Positions 1 to 5,350 of a stretch of 5,350 nt of DNA are shown here, piece by piece; within the stretch, counting starts at the first letter, position 1; each line of letters opens with the position of its first letter. Below the pieces are notes generated by a model, which was given only the letters and a program-made list of their open reading frames with translations, was not told the origin of the DNA and did not search any database. Both the position numbers and the translations under genes were made by a program. The DNA comes from Anaerolineales bacterium (GTDB lineage: Bacteria; Chloroflexota; Anaerolineae; Promineifilales; Promineifilaceae): the NCBI GenBank assembly GCA_020432595.1, contig JAGQGA010000407.1:1-5350 (forward strand), written 5' to 3'.

Positions 1-86
1 CGCAAAATGACGATCTACAGTATGCAGTCACACATCCTCACAAGTTACTCCCTTGGGCAGATCACAAAAGGTTGAATCACTCATGA
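1..86 (+). CDS. C-terminal end of an upstream gene (partial, function unknown)
   Basis: An open frame enters from the left edge (codons begin at base 3) and runs for 27 sense codons to a TGA at 84-86. The visible residues begin QNDDLQYAVTHPHKLLPWAD and then read HKRLNHS; there is no recognisable motif. The main support is position: its TGA overlaps the ATG of the next gene at 83 as ATGA, the usual layout of translationally coupled genes in polysaccharide operons. A competing open frame (codons from base 1, stop 73-75) exists, but it gives no such junction. By context the gene is probably another member of the glycosyltransferase cluster, which is inference only. The frame choice is moderately supported and the function is unknown. 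Confidence 0.45.
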   Translation, partial: QNDDLQYAVTHPHKLLPWADHKRLNHS

Positions 87-757
87 ACATGACAATTGTT
101 GTTGCCGCTTATCGTCTAGCAGAGCAGGCCATGCGCCAGTTTTTGGAATGGAATCAAACCGTATTTGAGAAGAACAATGTTCAGGTGCTAATGGTGACAG
201 ATAGAGAAGTTGATCTCCCATATGGCAACTGCCTTGTTTATCCCAAACAGCCACGTCACCTTTCTTTGCCCAGGGTAAATAATTATGGCATAAAGAGAGC
301 CGAGGGTATTGTTATTAAAAGTGACTTAGACATCATATTTTCAGACCAAATCCTTAACCATATCAGTAATGTTGTGCGGGATAGCTATGTGTTTATTGGC
401 ATTTGCGCGAATATTGATAGCTTGGCTGAAATGGATGCGAAGCCTTGGCATAGCTTTAAAAAACGTTTTTGGGGGTGGGGAGCATGTGTGGCTATGACGC
501 GGCACGATTGGGGAGCCTTGCATGGCTATAATGAAGAAATTTGGGGGTGGGGTGATGATGACCATGAGCTTGTTGCGCGTTTAAAATACCAATCTTGCTT
601 GTCGCTTAACAGCTTTTATCCTTTGTTTCATATGAACCATGACCAGCGGAAATCTTCAGAAGCTGATGCCTTTTTTCCTATTAGAAAACAAGAAAATGCA
701 GCATATATTGACGAGGCTTGGTATGAGGAGGCATGGGGAGAGGGTGCATATGATTAG
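83..757 (+). CDS. Glycosyltransferase, GT-A fold, galactosyltransferase C-terminal (Glyco_transf_7C)-like
   Basis: This 224-residue protein should transfer a sugar from a nucleotide-sugar donor during surface polysaccharide or glycan synthesis, probably at the cytoplasmic face of the membrane; no signal peptide or membrane segment is visible. The N-terminus MTIVVAAYRL is a typical GT-A first strand. RVNNYGIKRAEGIVIKSDLD (64-83) matches the 'N-x-G-x-x-x-A-x-G ... D-x-D' block, with a DLD metal/nucleotide site at 81-83. FWGWGACVAMTR (129-140) followed by GYNEEIWGWGDDDHELVARL (148-167) is the acceptor-side signature of the galactosyltransferase C-terminal family, which usually reads GWGGEDDD. 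FHMNHDQ (182-188) may be a late metal-binding histidine segment. ATG 83 is preferred because it overlaps the upstream stop as ATGA and has AAAGG at 67-71; the longer frame from a TTG at 53 would add ten unsupported residues. ATG 89 is an alternative. The family call is firm; donor and acceptor cannot be told. Confidence 0.85.
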   Translation: MNMTIVVAAYRLAEQAMRQFLEWNQTVFEKNNVQVLMVTDREVDLPYGNCLVYPKQPRHLSLPRVNNYGIKRAEGIVIKSDLDIIFSDQILNHISNVVRDSYVFIGICANIDSLAEMDAKPWHSFKKRFWGWGACVAMTRHDWGALHGYNEEIWGWGDDDHELVARLKYQSCLSLNSFYPLFHMNHDQRKSSEADAFFPIRKQENAAYIDEAWYEEAWGEGAYD

Positions 758-786: not shown

Positions 787-1569
787 ATGCAGGTTAAAAA
801 CGAATGTTGGCAAAGTGATGAATTATATAATTCGGCCGTTGTTGTTGTCGTACAGAGGAATGCTGGTTCGCGCATTGTGCGTGCTTTGGCTTCTGTTTAT
901 CGTCAAGATTATGATGATATAGGCATTCTATTTATTGATGATGCGTCAACAGACGATACAAAGGTGTTGGCAAGTGATTTCTTTGCCCAAAACATAGGTC
1001 GCGGTTTTAGTGTAGTGACACATTTCAATGCAAGCCAGACACCGAAGGTTGCTAGTTTGGATACGGCCATTAGGAAGTTTTGCAAGAATCCCGAATCCGT
1101 GATTTTTTGGTTGGATGGTGATGATGAGCTGCTGACAAATGAAGCAATTCGTGTGATGATGGAGGATCATCAAGTGTATGATGTGGTGTGGAGCCAGCAC
1201 GAATTTGTTAATTTGAAAAAGGGATTGACGTTTGGTGGTTTCTGTGCCTCAATGGAGTCTGATTGTCCACGGCAGCATCGTTGGGTTTCTTCACATTTAA
1301 AGAGTTTTAAGAATCATCTTTTCCAACGAATTGAGAATTGGATGCTAAGAGATGACGAAGGTGTGTATTATCCTTTTGCGGTGGATCGGGTTATTATGTA
1401 TCTGTTGATAGAGATGGTGGGGAAGGATAGATGTTTCTTTAGGGATAAGGTTTATTATCGCTATTATCATGCTACTCCCGAGCCTATTGTGCGATTGCAA
1501 AAGGAATGCGTTGAGAAGCTGGTGGTGCAAGAGCCGTTAGGGGCGCGATGGCAGGGATTTGTTCAATGA
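787..1569 (+). CDS. Family 2 glycosyltransferase
   Basis: This 260-residue protein is predicted to transfer a sugar from an activated donor to a growing glycan, working in the cytoplasm or at the inner membrane face. The N-terminal half is classical GT2: a hydrophobic strand AVVVVVQRNAG (17-27), then ALASVYRQDYDDIGILFIDD (33-52) and ASTDDT (53-58), the nucleotide-binding half. The DXD-type metal site is DGDD at 110-113, in FWLDGDDELL. SSHLKSFKNHLFQRI (168-182) resembles the helix that follows the donor site in many GT2 enzymes. DRVIMYLL (200-207) may hold the acidic catalytic base region, and DKVYYRYYHAT (220-230) matches the 'L-Y-Y-Y-R-x-H' ending of the catalytic domain. About 260 residues is a normal single-domain GT2 length, and no transmembrane helix is visible. 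It sits 29 bases after the first glycosyltransferase, apparently in the same operon. GC is about 41% with many T-ending codons, unlike the kinase gene downstream. The substrate is unknown. Confidence 0.9.
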   Translation: MQVKNECWQSDELYNSAVVVVVQRNAGSRIVRALASVYRQDYDDIGILFIDDASTDDTKVLASDFFAQNIGRGFSVVTHFNASQTPKVASLDTAIRKFCKNPESVIFWLDGDDELLTNEAIRVMMEDHQVYDVVWSQHEFVNLKKGLTFGGFCASMESDCPRQHRWVSSHLKSFKNHLFQRIENWMLRDDEGVYYPFAVDRVIMYLLIEMVGKDRCFFRDKVYYRYYHATPEPIVRLQKECVEKLVVQEPLGARWQGFVQ

Positions 1570-1924: not shown

Positions 1925-1930
1925 ATGCAA

Positions 1931-2007
1931 ATGATTAACGGCCGTTATCTCCTCCACAACAAACTAGGCCAAGGCGGCATGGGCATCGTCCACCGCGCCA
2001 CCGACCG
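1931..2007 (+). repeat. 77-base exact direct repeat, copy 1 (kinase gene start)
   Basis: The bases from ATG 1931 to 2007 are identical, without a mismatch, to 5274-5350; the offset is 3343 bases. Identity starts at the A of the start codon: the preceding base is A here and G in copy 2. It encodes the kinase N-terminus and ATP-binding loop. The right limit is unknown because copy 2 is cut by the window. Confidence 0.95.
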
Positions 2008-5000
2008 GCTGACGGGCGAAACGGTGGCCCTCAAACAGGTCTTTTTGCCTGTCGAGCAGCTTATGTTTAGCTCGCGCCCTGCTTCGCAAACCAATCGCGA
2101 GCTGCGGCTGGCGTTAGCGCACGAATTCCAAACCCTTGCCGGGTTGCGCCACCCCAATATCATCAGCGTGCTGGATTATGGCTTTGATGAAAACGGACAG
2201 CCGTTTTTTACGATGTCGTATTTGGAAGAGGCGCAAACGATTTTGGCGGCGGCAAACGGCCGTTCTGCTCCCGAAAAAGTCAATTTGCTCATCCAAACGC
2301 TCGAAGCCCTCGCCTACCTGCACCGGCGCGGCATTTTGCACCGTGATCTGAAACCCGACAATGTGCTGGTGGTGGGCGACACGGTGCGCGTGCTGGATTT
2401 TGGGCTGGCGGCGGCCAAGGAACAGGCCACCGACTCCGTTGGCAGTTGGCTCTACATGGCACCTGAGGTGCTGCTGGGGCAGCCAGCCACAGAAGCCAGC
2501 GACCTTTACGCAGTTGGTGTACTGGCCTACCGGCTATTAGCTGGCATTCATCCCTTTAATATCTATGCCGACGATACGATTGGGGAGATTTTGGCGGGCG
2601 AACCGGATTGGAGTAAGGTGCAGAGTGGAGGGGAATTAACGGCCGTTATTCAAAAGCTACTTAGCAAACAACCTGAACAACGGTACCAAAGAGCCTTTGA
2701 TGTACTGCAAGACCTGACGGCAACCGCAGGTCAATCGCTGCTAATAGAGACGGCCGCCATCCGCGAAAGCTACCTCCAAGCCGCCAAATTTGTGGGGCGC
2801 GAAACCGAAATGGCTCAGCTAACCGAAGCATTGCACCAAGCTACCAGCGGCACTGGCTCTACCTGGCTCATTGGTGGTGAAAGTGGCGTAGGCAAATCCC
2901 GGCTGCTCAACGAACTCCGCACCATTGCCCTGGTAAATGGTTTTCAGGTCATCCGGGGCCAAGCCGTCAAAGACGGTAGTATTCCCTACCAAATTTGGCG
3001 AGAGCCTGTGCGGCGGTTGCTTTTAACAACCACCATCAGCGATGTAGAAGCCAGTGTCCTAAAGGATTTTATTCCCGACATTCATCACCTGTTAGCACAC
3101 CCTGTTGCCAATGCCCCCACCTTAATCGGGCCTGCCTATCACGAACGGCTGCTCTTCACCATCCTCGATTTATTCCGGCGGCAGCAAACCCCCATGCTAT
3201 TTCTGGCTGAAGACCTTCACTGGACACAAGAGAGCCTGATCTGGCTCAAATTCTTAAGCCAATTTGCCAAAGGATTATCCCTCCTCATCATCGGCACCTA
3301 TCGTGACGATGAAAGGCCAGATTTGCCTGAGGCAATGCCACAGGCACAGATTCTAAAATTGCTGCGGCTAAATGAAACAGACATTGCCAGCCTGACCGAG
3401 GCCATGTTAGGCCCAGCCGGGAAAGAGCCAGCCTTACTCAATTTGCTGCAACAGGAAACCGAAGGTAACGCCTTTTTTATGGTTGAAGTGATGCGAGCTT
3501 TAGCCACAGAAGCAGGGGATCTGAGCCAGATTGGGCATATGACGCTGCCAAAGACCCTTCTGGTAGGTGGGGTGCAAGAAGTGCTGCAGCGTCGCATTGG
3601 ACGAATGCCTGCATGGGGACGGCCGTTATTACAATTAGCTGCCGTCATTGGCCGCCAATTCGATTTACACCTTCTCGCTACGCTATCACCCACCACAGAC
3701 TTGACCCAGTGGCTCACCCTAGGGGCAGAAGTGGCTCTCTTTGAAGTACAAGAAAACCAATGGCGTTTTAGCCATGACAAGCTGCGTGAAGCCGTACTTG
3801 CCGATCTACCACAAGGAGAACACAAATTGCTCCATCGGCAGGTAGCCGAAACAATTGAACAAACGTACTCTGGGGACGAAACACGCAACGAACAATTGAT
3901 GAGCCATTGGCGCAATGCGGGTGAAATAGCGAGAGAACTGCCCTACATCCTCAAGGTCGCCCGCGAAGTGCCCCATGGTCGCAGCAGTTTTCAATACGCG
4001 CTGGAACTAATCGCCCGTGGTCTATCACTGGCCGCACAAATCCAAGACATACCTACCCAGTTAGAACTAGTTATCGTCCAAAGCTCGATGTACCATGAAC
4101 TTGGTGAATATGCCGCAGCCCAGCAATGCCTGGAACAAGCCTTACCCCAAATCCAGGCACTGGGTCTCTACAAGCTGGAACACAAAGCGCACTACAATCT
4201 GTCTCGCATAGCCTGGCAGCTTGGCAATCATCAGATGATGGTTGACCAAGCCAACCAGTCTTATGTTCTGAGCCGTGAAACCGGGAATATGGCTGGCCTG
4301 GTAAACAGCCTTAACCAACTGGGGCTAGCCTACGACAGCTCTGGAGATATAGCGAAAGCCCGAGATTATTATCGCCAATGCCTAGAACTCGCCCGCCAAA
4401 TTGAAGATAATCGCTTTACCGCTATTGCTCTCAACAACATTGGCGAGGGATTTACCGACGAAGGGGATTATGTGAGTGCCTGTCAGTACTATTTAGATGC
4501 TTACGAGATTGATCAACATCGAGGGGATCGGCACGGGATGGCTATCCAGCTCGCGAATTTGGGCAATAATGCGCTGGCACGTGGCAGTTGGTCTGAGGCT
4601 CGCCAATATCTGGAGGAGAGTATCCAGATTGAACGCGATTTTGATTTGGGAACATGGTTGGGGCTGGCACTAAACAGCATGGCAATGGTAGAACTGATTG
4701 CAGGTAATCACCAAGCGGCTGAAGATTGCGTAATGGAGAATTTGATTCTGGCTGATACCTTAGGCAGTCGCCTCCATAAACCCGAGGCTTTGCTATGGCT
4801 TGGCTATCTGCGGCTGGTACACAACAACCTGATTGACGCCCTGAAGGCCTATAACCAGGCTGTAGAGATTGCTCGAGATACAGAGGTGGTTGTTTTGGTA
4901 GATGCTCTCGCCGGGCGAGCCTTTGCCCAAACTGACCCAACTGTAGCCTGGCAAGATTTATTGGAGGCACTTACCCTCGCCCAGCAAAACAACCTCGGAC

Positions 5001-5281
5001 GCTTGCGTATCAATGCCCTAACGATTGTTGCCAGCCTGTATGCGCGACAAGGGCAGCTTGAGCAAGCTGCCGAGCTTTGTGGGCTGTTAGATGCTCAGGG
5101 GAATTTTGACCATCAGGCAATACGCACGCTTTACCGGGAACCGCTTAAAGTAGAACTGCGTGCCAAATTGGGGGATTTGGTTTATGAGGAGACGAGCAAA
5201 CGGCTGCTAGGGCAGCCGTTACAGGATGTAGCCCAAGCTGTACTTGACTCCCGTCAAAAGGGCAAGGGGCAAGATGATTAA
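1931..5281 (+). CDS. Ser/Thr protein kinase - AAA_16 STAND ATPase - TPR signalling protein
   Basis: This 1116-residue multidomain cytoplasmic switch should phosphorylate Ser/Thr and couple ATP-driven STAND conformational change to TPR-mediated sensing; its partners are unknown. Numbering is from ATG 1931. The kinase domain (about 6-263) is complete: LGQGGMGIV (12-20), VALK with Lys35, Glu65 of helix C, HRDLKPDN (137-144, catalytic Asp139), DFG (156-158), APE (177-179). A linker leads to FVGRETEMAQL (287-297), the start of an AAA_16/STAND module with Walker A GESGVGKS (316-323), Walker B-like MLFLAEDLHW (422-431) and GTYRDDE (455-461). A winged-helix-like part ends in FSHDKLREAV (613-622). About nine TPR-like units of close to 40 residues fill 709-1059. 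The tail (LRAKLGDLVYEE..., then GQPLQDVAQAVL) resembles the ending of AfsR/MalT-like ATPases, so the protein looks full length. There is no transmembrane segment, PASTA, LuxR or cyclase domain. PknK of Mycobacterium shares the kinase-STAND plan. An alternative start is ATG 1925. The stop overlaps the next gene by 8 bases. Confidence 0.93.
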   Translation: MINGRYLLHNKLGQGGMGIVHRATDRLTGETVALKQVFLPVEQLMFSSRPASQTNRELRLALAHEFQTLAGLRHPNIISVLDYGFDENGQPFFTMSYLEEAQTILAAANGRSAPEKVNLLIQTLEALAYLHRRGILHRDLKPDNVLVVGDTVRVLDFGLAAAKEQATDSVGSWLYMAPEVLLGQPATEASDLYAVGVLAYRLLAGIHPFNIYADDTIGEILAGEPDWSKVQSGGELTAVIQKLLSKQPEQRYQRAFDVLQDLTATAGQSLLIETAAIRESYLQAAKFVGRETEMAQLTEALHQATSGTGSTWLIGGESGVGKSRLLNELRTIALVNGFQVIRGQAVKDGSIPYQIWREPVRRLLLTTTISDVEASVLKDFIPDIHHLLAHPVANAPTLIGPAYHERLLFTILDLFRRQQTPMLFLAEDLHWTQESLIWLKFLSQFAKGLSLLIIGTYRDDERPDLPEAMPQAQILKLLRLNETDIASLTEAMLGPAGKEPALLNLLQQETEGNAFFMVEVMRALATEAGDLSQIGHMTLPKTLLVGGVQEVLQRRIGRMPAWGRPLLQLAAVIGRQFDLHLLATLSPTTDLTQWLTLGAEVALFEVQENQWRFSHDKLREAVLADLPQGEHKLLHRQVAETIEQTYSGDETRNEQLMSHWRNAGEIARELPYILKVAREVPHGRSSFQYALELIARGLSLAAQIQDIPTQLELVIVQSSMYHELGEYAAAQQCLEQALPQIQALGLYKLEHKAHYNLSRIAWQLGNHQMMVDQANQSYVLSRETGNMAGLVNSLNQLGLAYDSSGDIAKARDYYRQCLELARQIEDNRFTAIALNNIGEGFTDEGDYVSACQYYLDAYEIDQHRGDRHGMAIQLANLGNNALARGSWSEARQYLEESIQIERDFDLGTWLGLALNSMAMVELIAGNHQAAEDCVMENLILADTLGSRLHKPEALLWLGYLRLVHNNLIDALKAYNQAVEIARDTEVVVLVDALAGRAFAQTDPTVAWQDLLEALTLAQQNNLGRLRINALTIVASLYARQGQLEQAAELCGLLDAQGNFDHQAIRTLYREPLKVELRAKLGDLVYEETSKRLLGQPLQDVAQAVLDSRQKGKGQDD
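1936..1947. repeat. Palindrome TAACGGCCGTTA, copy 1
   Basis: This perfect 12-base palindrome lies within the kinase start, with the AAC GGC CGT codons in phase. It is one of several copies in the window (also 2637-2648 and 5279-5290). Confidence 0.7.
2255..2264. repeat. Palindrome AACGGCCGTT, copy 2
   Basis: This perfect 10-base palindrome is inside the kinase coding region, in the same codon phase as copy 1 (Asn-Gly-Arg) but at an unrelated protein position. Confidence 0.65.
2637..2648. repeat. Palindrome TAACGGCCGTTA, copy 3
   Basis: This perfect 12-base palindrome near the end of the kinase domain is read in a different codon phase (Leu-Thr-Ala-Val). The DNA word, not the peptide, is what recurs. 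Confidence 0.7.
3619..3626. repeat. Palindrome core ACGGCCGT, copy 4
   Basis: The 8-base palindrome continues as ACGGCCGTTATT, matching the right flank at 2639-2650. It is read in the third codon phase (Gly-Arg-Pro-Leu), in the winged-helix-like region. Confidence 0.55.
5264..5269 (+). promoter_or_regulatory. Ribosome binding site of the downstream kinase copy, inside the first gene
   Basis: AAGGGG lies 4 bases before ATG 5274, within the last codons of the first kinase gene. It differs from the weak GTGAG before the first copy, so the two copies have unrelated initiation regions despite identical starts. Confidence 0.5.
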
Positions 5282-5350
5282 CGGCCGTTATCTCCTCCAC
5301 AACAAACTAGGCCAAGGCGGCATGGGCATCGTCCACCGCGCCACCGACCG
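5274..5350 (+). CDS. Start of a second, paralogous Ser/Thr kinase gene (cut by the window end)
   Basis: ATG 5274 overlaps the TAA of the previous gene (5279-5281) by 8 bases in another frame. The 25 complete codons visible encode MINGRYLLHNKLGQGGMGIV and then HRATD, identical to the first residues of the preceding kinase, including the glycine-rich ATP loop. It is therefore very likely a second kinase, probably of the same kinase-STAND-TPR design, translated by coupling to the first. Whether it is full length, truncated or divergent beyond the window cannot be seen. Confidence 0.8.
   Translation, partial: MINGRYLLHNKLGQGGMGIVHRATD
5274..5350 (+). repeat. 77-base exact direct repeat, copy 2 (start of the next gene)
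   Basis: This is identical to 1931-2007 including all synonymous positions. Such identity points to recent tandem duplication, gene conversion or an assembly repeat rather than protein-level conservation alone. Confidence 0.95.
5279..5290. repeat. Palindrome TAACGGCCGTTA, copy 5
   Basis: This copy spans the stop codon of the first kinase and the third to sixth codons of the second. It belongs to the 77-base repeat and so is not independent of copy 1. Confidence 0.7.

Follow-up and report, generated by a model that had tools for sequence, protein, structure and literature searches.

The window, that is, the whole stretch of 5,350 nucleotides analyzed here, ends with a copy of the beginning of its own largest gene, which raises the question whether genes of this type stand in a head-to-tail array and, if so, which of their parts are kept alike and by which process. 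Our results suggested that the window probably contains one complete member and the first codons of the next in a head-to-tail set of kinase-STAND-TPR genes. We consider it fairly likely that the kinase half of such genes has been exchanged repeatedly by recombination, with the result that many inputs act through one output. The coordinates of all features are shown in Table 1.

Table 1. Features of the window, with the fused two-unit ORFs of relatives in the last line
Feature	Position	Strand	Basis or remark
Glycosyltransferase-like ORF	53-757		Pfam scan
Glycosyltransferase-like ORF	787-1569		Pfam scan
Gene 1, 1118-aa Ser/Thr kinase - STAND ATPase - TPR protein	1925..5281	+	ORF, Pfam, motifs; alternative in-frame start 1931
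77-nt repeat, copy 1	1931..2007	+	Gene 1 codons 3-28, last codon cut
AACGGCCGTT palindrome in NGRY codons	1937..1946	+	Same site at 5280-5289 in second unit
Kinase domain, residues 10-255	1952..2689	+	Pfam; by change points, module shared up to about residue 230, nt ~2612
STAND ATPase (AAA_16), residues 288-445	2786..3259	+	Pfam; fold match 6mfv
TPR superhelix, residues ~668-1110, putative sensor	3926..5254	+	Pfam, structure model
AAGGGG, Shine-Dalgarno-like, inside gene 1	5264..5269	+	4 nt ahead of gene 2 ATG
Copy 2 of the 77-nt repeat, with the 25 visible codons of gene 2	5274..5350	+	Ends with the window
8-nt overlap ATGATTAA, gene 1 stop inside gene 2 start	5274..5281	+	Read from sequence
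Fused two-unit ORFs	P0005; L109:8256-17189; L110:1671-8600 (open at end)		1780, 2977, 2326 aa

Gene 1 is an intact-looking member of a family expanded in Chloroflexota. Its protein ends with KGKGQDD before one terminal TAA, and Pfam matches covered all three parts (Pkinase, 5.3e-41; AAA_16, 1.2e-19; TPR_12, 4.3e-25). The motifs GQGGMG, ALKQV, HRDLKPDN, DFG, APE, GGESGVGKS and LFLAEDLHW were found. With its Gly loop, Lys, HRD and DFG, the Pkinase domain has the marks of a Hanks-type bacterial Ser/Thr kinase and is predicted to be one. The remainder shows the layout of a STAND NTPase, a P-loop ATPase (Walker A and B) ahead of a helical region and a repeat sensor; this assignment is based on AAA_16, the motifs, the structure model and the best fold match, whose TM-scores are modest (6mfv, a STAND-TPR structure, 0.36/0.57; the second match was Avs3, 8dgc). 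The model was fair to good for the STAND and TPR parts (block means of 61-96, residues 291-1110), which were the only parts used in the fold search, and poor for the kinase part (pLDDT below 50 at residues 1-112), perhaps because of the small alignment of 14 rows. Upstream, GC content is about 42-43% in both glycosyltransferase-like ORFs, below the approximately 49-59% of the kinase gene. The ~355 bases between the second glycosyltransferase-like ORF and gene 1 (1570-1924), to which no gene was assigned, contain recurring phrases, namely ACACGGATGAACACGGATGAA (near 1590) and TTTTCATTCATSGTGGTSGGC (1627 and 1744). This segment had no match among plasmids, and no Rfam family reached its gathering score, the segment included. 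Reverse transcriptase was absent from the Pfam matches of the three ORFs scanned in the 5.35-kb window.

The initial annotation had proposed that the second gene starts with 77 bases identical to the first, silent sites included, and that its ATG lies within the last codons of gene 1. All of this was confirmed: positions 1931-2007 and 5274-5350 form an exact direct repeat at an offset of 3343 with zero mismatches, the 25 complete codons common to both copies, 23 of them degenerate, agree at every base, and the ATG at 5274 lies inside the overlap ATGATTAA. Every 16-, 20-, 25- and 31-mer repeat listed for the window comes from this pair. Since the repeat stops where the window stops, 77 nt is a lower bound; to the left, it extends by 0 bases. 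The further claim that identity begins exactly at the start codon was partly right, in that it begins at an in-frame ATG; that ATG (1931) is the second one, and gene 1 probably starts at the ATG at 1925, because the near-identical relative P0001 begins MQMINGRY. The start of gene 2, ATGATTAAC, holds a stop in both other reading frames, and thus an upstream gene in either frame terminates within 8 bases. Because an overlap of the type ATGATTAA leaves [DNHY]D as the only possible C-terminus of the upstream protein, this ending provides an indirect trace of the overlap in proteins. It was found in 4 of 20 close relatives (P0012, P0020, P0022 and P0007) and in 0 of 172 other retrieved proteins, a count that excludes the window and P0001 and uses a pattern chosen post hoc, so that its p-values are descriptive. 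Taken as a tandem array, the 5274 junction is likely, if short of proven: the window shows gene 2 for 25 codons, and relatives suggest that a second kinase-STAND gene probably follows. P0006 was considered as the actual gene 2 and set aside; its first codons fit exactly, yet those of P0010 fit equally well.

The palindrome AACGGCCGTT was exact at 1937, 2255, 2638 and 5280 in the window, with one further site at 3618 bearing 1 mismatch. It had 3823 copies in G411, 4045 in G412, 1898 in G413, 877 in G005, 149 in G001, 1 in G002 and 0 in G006, and its reversed control had 1-22 copies in the same seven genomes. It is thus highly iterated, as is the cyanobacterial HIP1, from which it differs in sequence; in the HIP1 paper (PMC4390886), 'Chloroflex' and 'ACGGCCGT' have 0 occurrences.

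Protein searches, from which the best 120 of 5727 and the best 120 of 5398 matches were taken, revealed among the best 120 a close clade of 21 proteins with 73-98% identity in the first 290 residues. The named ones are labeled Chloroflexota, Anaerolineales or Ardenticatenaceae. Several appear to share a contig, judging by the equal length of their longest one: P0002, P0012 and P0024 (47,879 nt), P0009, P0011, P0014, P0019 and P0021 (1,400,197 nt), and P0022 and P0029 (29,703 nt). P0140, for which the length is likewise 1,400,197 nt, showed a kinase identity of only 55% and falls outside the close clade, which weighs against the reading favored here. Two of 8 Chloroflexota genomes had 12 and 20 kinase-STAND-TPR matches at E <= 1e-100. 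Among plasmids, 224 records matched, all below 60% identity and none covering 80% of the query, and viral contigs gave 2 weak kinase matches. A genome scan of 555 relatives for a close relative retained 79 loci, and among these the best-segment identity was at most 51%. Among the candidates scored, kinase identity never exceeded 57% in 396 genomes of the class (full P0002 protein, E <= 1e-200, 2 candidates per genome), in 56 genomes of the order or in 154 from another order (kinase query).

Comparison of the window with 20 relatives (21 rows, with P0001 omitted as a near copy of the window) revealed that the parts of the protein behave differently. In the kinase, ortholog-like pairs (n=5) showed 86.7% identity and paralog pairs (n=205) 85.1%, whereas between the same two sets STAND identity fell from 83.8% to 47.0% and TPR identity from 76.0% to 21.4%; kinase and STAND identities were uncorrelated (r=-0.03). 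The kinase of P0002, for example, was 91% identical to that of P0012 and 90% to that of P0024, as against 86% to its own ortholog in the window. Paralog kinases are thus no less similar than ortholog kinases, unlike the segment that follows them, a conflict characteristic of concerted evolution. The change point fell at residues 230-251 in 8 of 13 paralog pairs tested and at 203, 205, 294, 329 and 341 in the other five, with gains of 46-141 lnL in the 13 paralog pairs against 1.8-10.2 in 5 ortholog pairs (largest for P0014-P0016). The expectation that shared kinase ends are joined to differing sensor ends therefore held among the relatives. The related idea of an array that diversifies its sensors was not supported: TPR parts were 72-81% identical in the 5 ortholog-like pairs, on which ground ongoing sensor hypervariation was dropped. 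What is unusual takes place in the kinase, where similarity is preserved. P0009 and P0018, on two contigs, were identical in the kinase at residues 3-305 and ~51% divergent after 329 (56/51/29% identical in STAND and TPR), as would result from an exchange not long ago or from copies mixed in assembly. Same-contig paralogs of the close clade were not significantly closer in the kinase than others (87.0 vs 84.9%, permutation p=0.15), so that any exchange may be ancient or may cross from one genome to another.

The kinase half also differed wholesale between lineages. The window and P0002 showed 74-79% STAND and 67-70% TPR identity to P0003, P0004 and G411b, and only 57-62% in the kinase (for the window alone, 74-78% in STAND and 58-62% in the kinase); P0012-G413b followed the pattern of window-G411b (80/75/55 against 55/61/43). 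In P0003, P0004 and G411b, the TPR part is followed by GAF and HisKA, both of which the window protein lacks. The kinase tree united G411a, G411b, G413a, G413b, P0003 and P0004, which the STAND tree distributed among the types of the window, P0012 and P0019, with G413a beside P0032; P0019 and P0007 clustered with G411a in the STAND tree only. These trees omit P0005b, P0040, P0017, P0044, G411e, P0069, P0123 and P0122 from the aligned set. A shared topology was rejected in all seven AU tests (p of 6.9e-5 or lower), three with STAND groups forced on kinase data and four with kinase groups forced on STAND data, on 27 rows that also omit P0018, P0008, P0028, P0032, P0005a, G008 and G411d; as the groups were named after the trees had been seen, these p-values are descriptive. 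The same STAND/TPR types were found with two different kinase lineages. In the relatives, the kinase half (residues 1 to ~230) has a history unlike that of the STAND-TPR half, being alike among paralogs and wholesale different between lineages. This separate evolution of the kinase and sensor halves is a broader and better supported finding than the tandem array at the junction.

The proposed tandem array had counterparts in head-to-tail kinase-STAND-TPR genes of relatives, some closely spaced and some fused. Two units are joined in the 2977-aa ORF of G411 (contig 55), which also includes GAF, HisKA, HATPase and receiver domains, and two in the 2326-aa ORF of G413 (contig 540); P0005 is fused as well. 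The L017 junction possibly has a 4-nt overlap, if the GTG at 2887 is the start, and the L021 junction has a 38-nt overlap when its only ATG ahead of the kinase is used; gaps separate the neighbors at L022, L038, L043 and L055. The array idea fared less well with regard to shared kinases. Kinase identity was clearly above STAND identity in four of ten neighboring pairs (L021, L043, G411 and G413), weakly so in one (L017) and not above it in five (L022, L038, L055, L115 and P0005). The fused neighbors in G411 showed 75-76% kinase identity, against 37-56% in pairs with any of three dispersed copies, and those in G413 showed 92/76 against 47-58 with its one dispersed copy. Signs of homogenization within one genome were seen in the G411 and G413 fused pairs and were not significant in the close clade (p=0.15). 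A silent-site test of four neighbor pairs gave p=3e-10 for G413 (the strongest, 102/139 against 61/163), 0.062 for G411, 0.066 for G002 and 0.7 for G006. Non-neighbor pairs, however, reached p<0.05 in 8 of 11 cases (G411b-G413b, 1.4e-8), so this test is not neighbor-specific and the 5' end of the kinase is generally richer in shared silent sites.

At least one apparent recombination event is visible in the first codons of P0003, whose STAND part is 99-100% identical to G411b. Up to its residue 20, P0003 was of the unit-a (G411a) type at all 7 informative sites; it matched the unit-b (G411b) type at 44 of 44 sites at residues 36-220 and again at 460 of 464 sites after 340; the stretch 228-277 was mixed, with 8 unit-a and 5 unit-b sites and others matching neither. 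The switch from a to b falls in window residues 12-28, within the stretch of the 77-base repeat. No in-register exact run longer than 16 bases was found in the first 240 bases of the G411 units, which makes an assembler mix of these two unlikely, although the P0003 strain may carry other copies.

Several other explanations have to be weighed against repeated exchange of the kinase half. The length of the repeat is that of the usual k of SPAdes (77), and a de Bruijn assembler with k=77 leaves an exact 77-base match at the sequence end when it meets a repeat. The contig may therefore stop one 77-mer into the repeat, and where gene 1 begins the graph may even combine sequence from two paralogs. 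The match ends exactly with the window, and the protein differs from P0001 at 5 of 1118 residues (40, 43, 44, 47 and 56), at all five of which the window equals its paralog P0006. Because the contig may end there just since a second copy exists, a chance calculation on the 23 degenerate codons would be unfair. On the other hand, such an end would still require that the repeat be real and 77 bases or longer, and that reads support the passage across 5273/5274. Fused units spaced 3306 and 3345 nt occur in two other genomes, and the four relatives ending in [DNHY]D carry the C-terminus expected from such an overlap. We thus regard an assembly effect as unlikely. Even less probable is that the entire 3.3-kb unit was simply duplicated in tandem not long ago, with no conversion, in which case gene 2 would equal gene 1 throughout. 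It fits the 77 nt without mismatch and the L055 and L115 neighbors, which are alike across kinase and STAND; yet P0006 and P0010 share the first 26 residues and differ in STAND and TPR (51/46/20% and 55/46/20% to the window), and whole-gene duplication does not produce the conflict between kinase and STAND trees.

The similarity of paralog kinases might also be due to strong purifying selection on the kinase with no recombination, since kinase motifs are conserved anyway. We consider this the least probable reading: in orthologs the kinase was hardly more conserved than STAND (86.7 vs 83.8%), between the two lineages (A and B) it was less conserved (57-62 vs 74-79%), and the two trees were strongly in conflict. 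A stronger competitor, which we nevertheless think rather improbable, is domain shuffling across genomes, whereby a single kinase cassette became attached to many STAND-TPR bodies among related genomes, with no conversion continuing inside arrays. The non-significant same-contig effect agrees with it, as does the kinase of P0018, identical to that of P0009 on another contig in spite of dissimilar STAND and TPR parts. However, the kinase type of G411 and G413 was common to the fused neighbors and not to the dispersed copies examined (3 and 1), and the P0003 junction joins types found side by side in G411.

If the kinase half is repeatedly exchanged, recombination between units would take place by gene conversion or unequal crossing-over, at least once within the conserved first codons, so that the kinase is swapped and each unit keeps its own TPR sensor. 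By analogy with STAND biology, a ligand on the TPR superhelix would open the ATPase, the opened subunits would cluster, and the N-terminal kinases might then phosphorylate each other and a common substrate; many inputs would thereby feed one output. The 8-nt gene overlap would couple translation of neighbors. A more far-reaching proposal, which we offer tentatively, is an NLR-like bacterial repertoire of one output and many inputs. In such a repertoire, the conserved start (ATGATTAAC and the first ~30 codons) would serve as a recombination and restart tag that ends the upstream gene in either other frame within 8 bases and restarts translation, and the array would swap, lose or gain sensor units while the common kinase drives the same pathway. 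Under kinase-limited exchange, paralogs are predicted to share substrates and differ in ligands. In addition, short-read assemblies of kinase-STAND genes may break or mix at gene starts.

Finally, we compared the protein with known systems. The literature titles listed, which covered few subscription papers, included none on kinase-limited concerted evolution in STAND proteins and no account of the logic of kinase-STAND-TPR proteins, which are numerous in Chloroflexota. STAND NTPases with TPR sensors (6mfv) are alike in the central P-loop ATPase and the C-terminal TPR superhelix, and the window protein differs from them by its N-terminal Hanks-type kinase, the putative output. The antiviral Avs proteins (8dgc) are likewise STAND proteins with a C-terminal sensor; the predicted effector of the window protein, unlike theirs, is a kinase. 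The 25 of 34 PADLOC families listed were all kinase families (PD-T4-6, mad6, Stk2, MkoA and C3a189) matching in the kinase, and these listed matches held no evidence of a defense role. The cyanobacterial HstK-type kinases (cbSTKIII: STK + GAF + HisKA), as described in PMC2176072, likewise place a Ser/Thr kinase in a multi-domain signaling protein; their C-terminal GAF and histidine kinase have no counterpart in the window gene, whose last part is the TPR region. For multicellular bacteria, conflict systems that combine STAND, TPR and, in some cases, kinases are described in PMC7159879 and PMC10907252. In the vWA-ternary systems treated in the former, most kinase domains have disrupted catalytic residues, whereas the window kinase has catalytic motifs. 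With regard to concerted evolution, the 26 genes with a long-lasting prokaryotic form (PMC6053082) likewise have paralogs more alike than orthologs; the text deals with genes such as tuf, fla and mtrA and makes no mention of a kinase, and in the window family one domain only is concerned. The NLR genes het-d and het-e of Podospora also show concerted evolution and homogenize their sensor WD40 repeats (PMC12222747), whereas in the window family the effector half appears to be the one homogenized. Kinase-limited exchange would thus mirror the fungal NLRs, where it is the sensor repeats that are homogenized.
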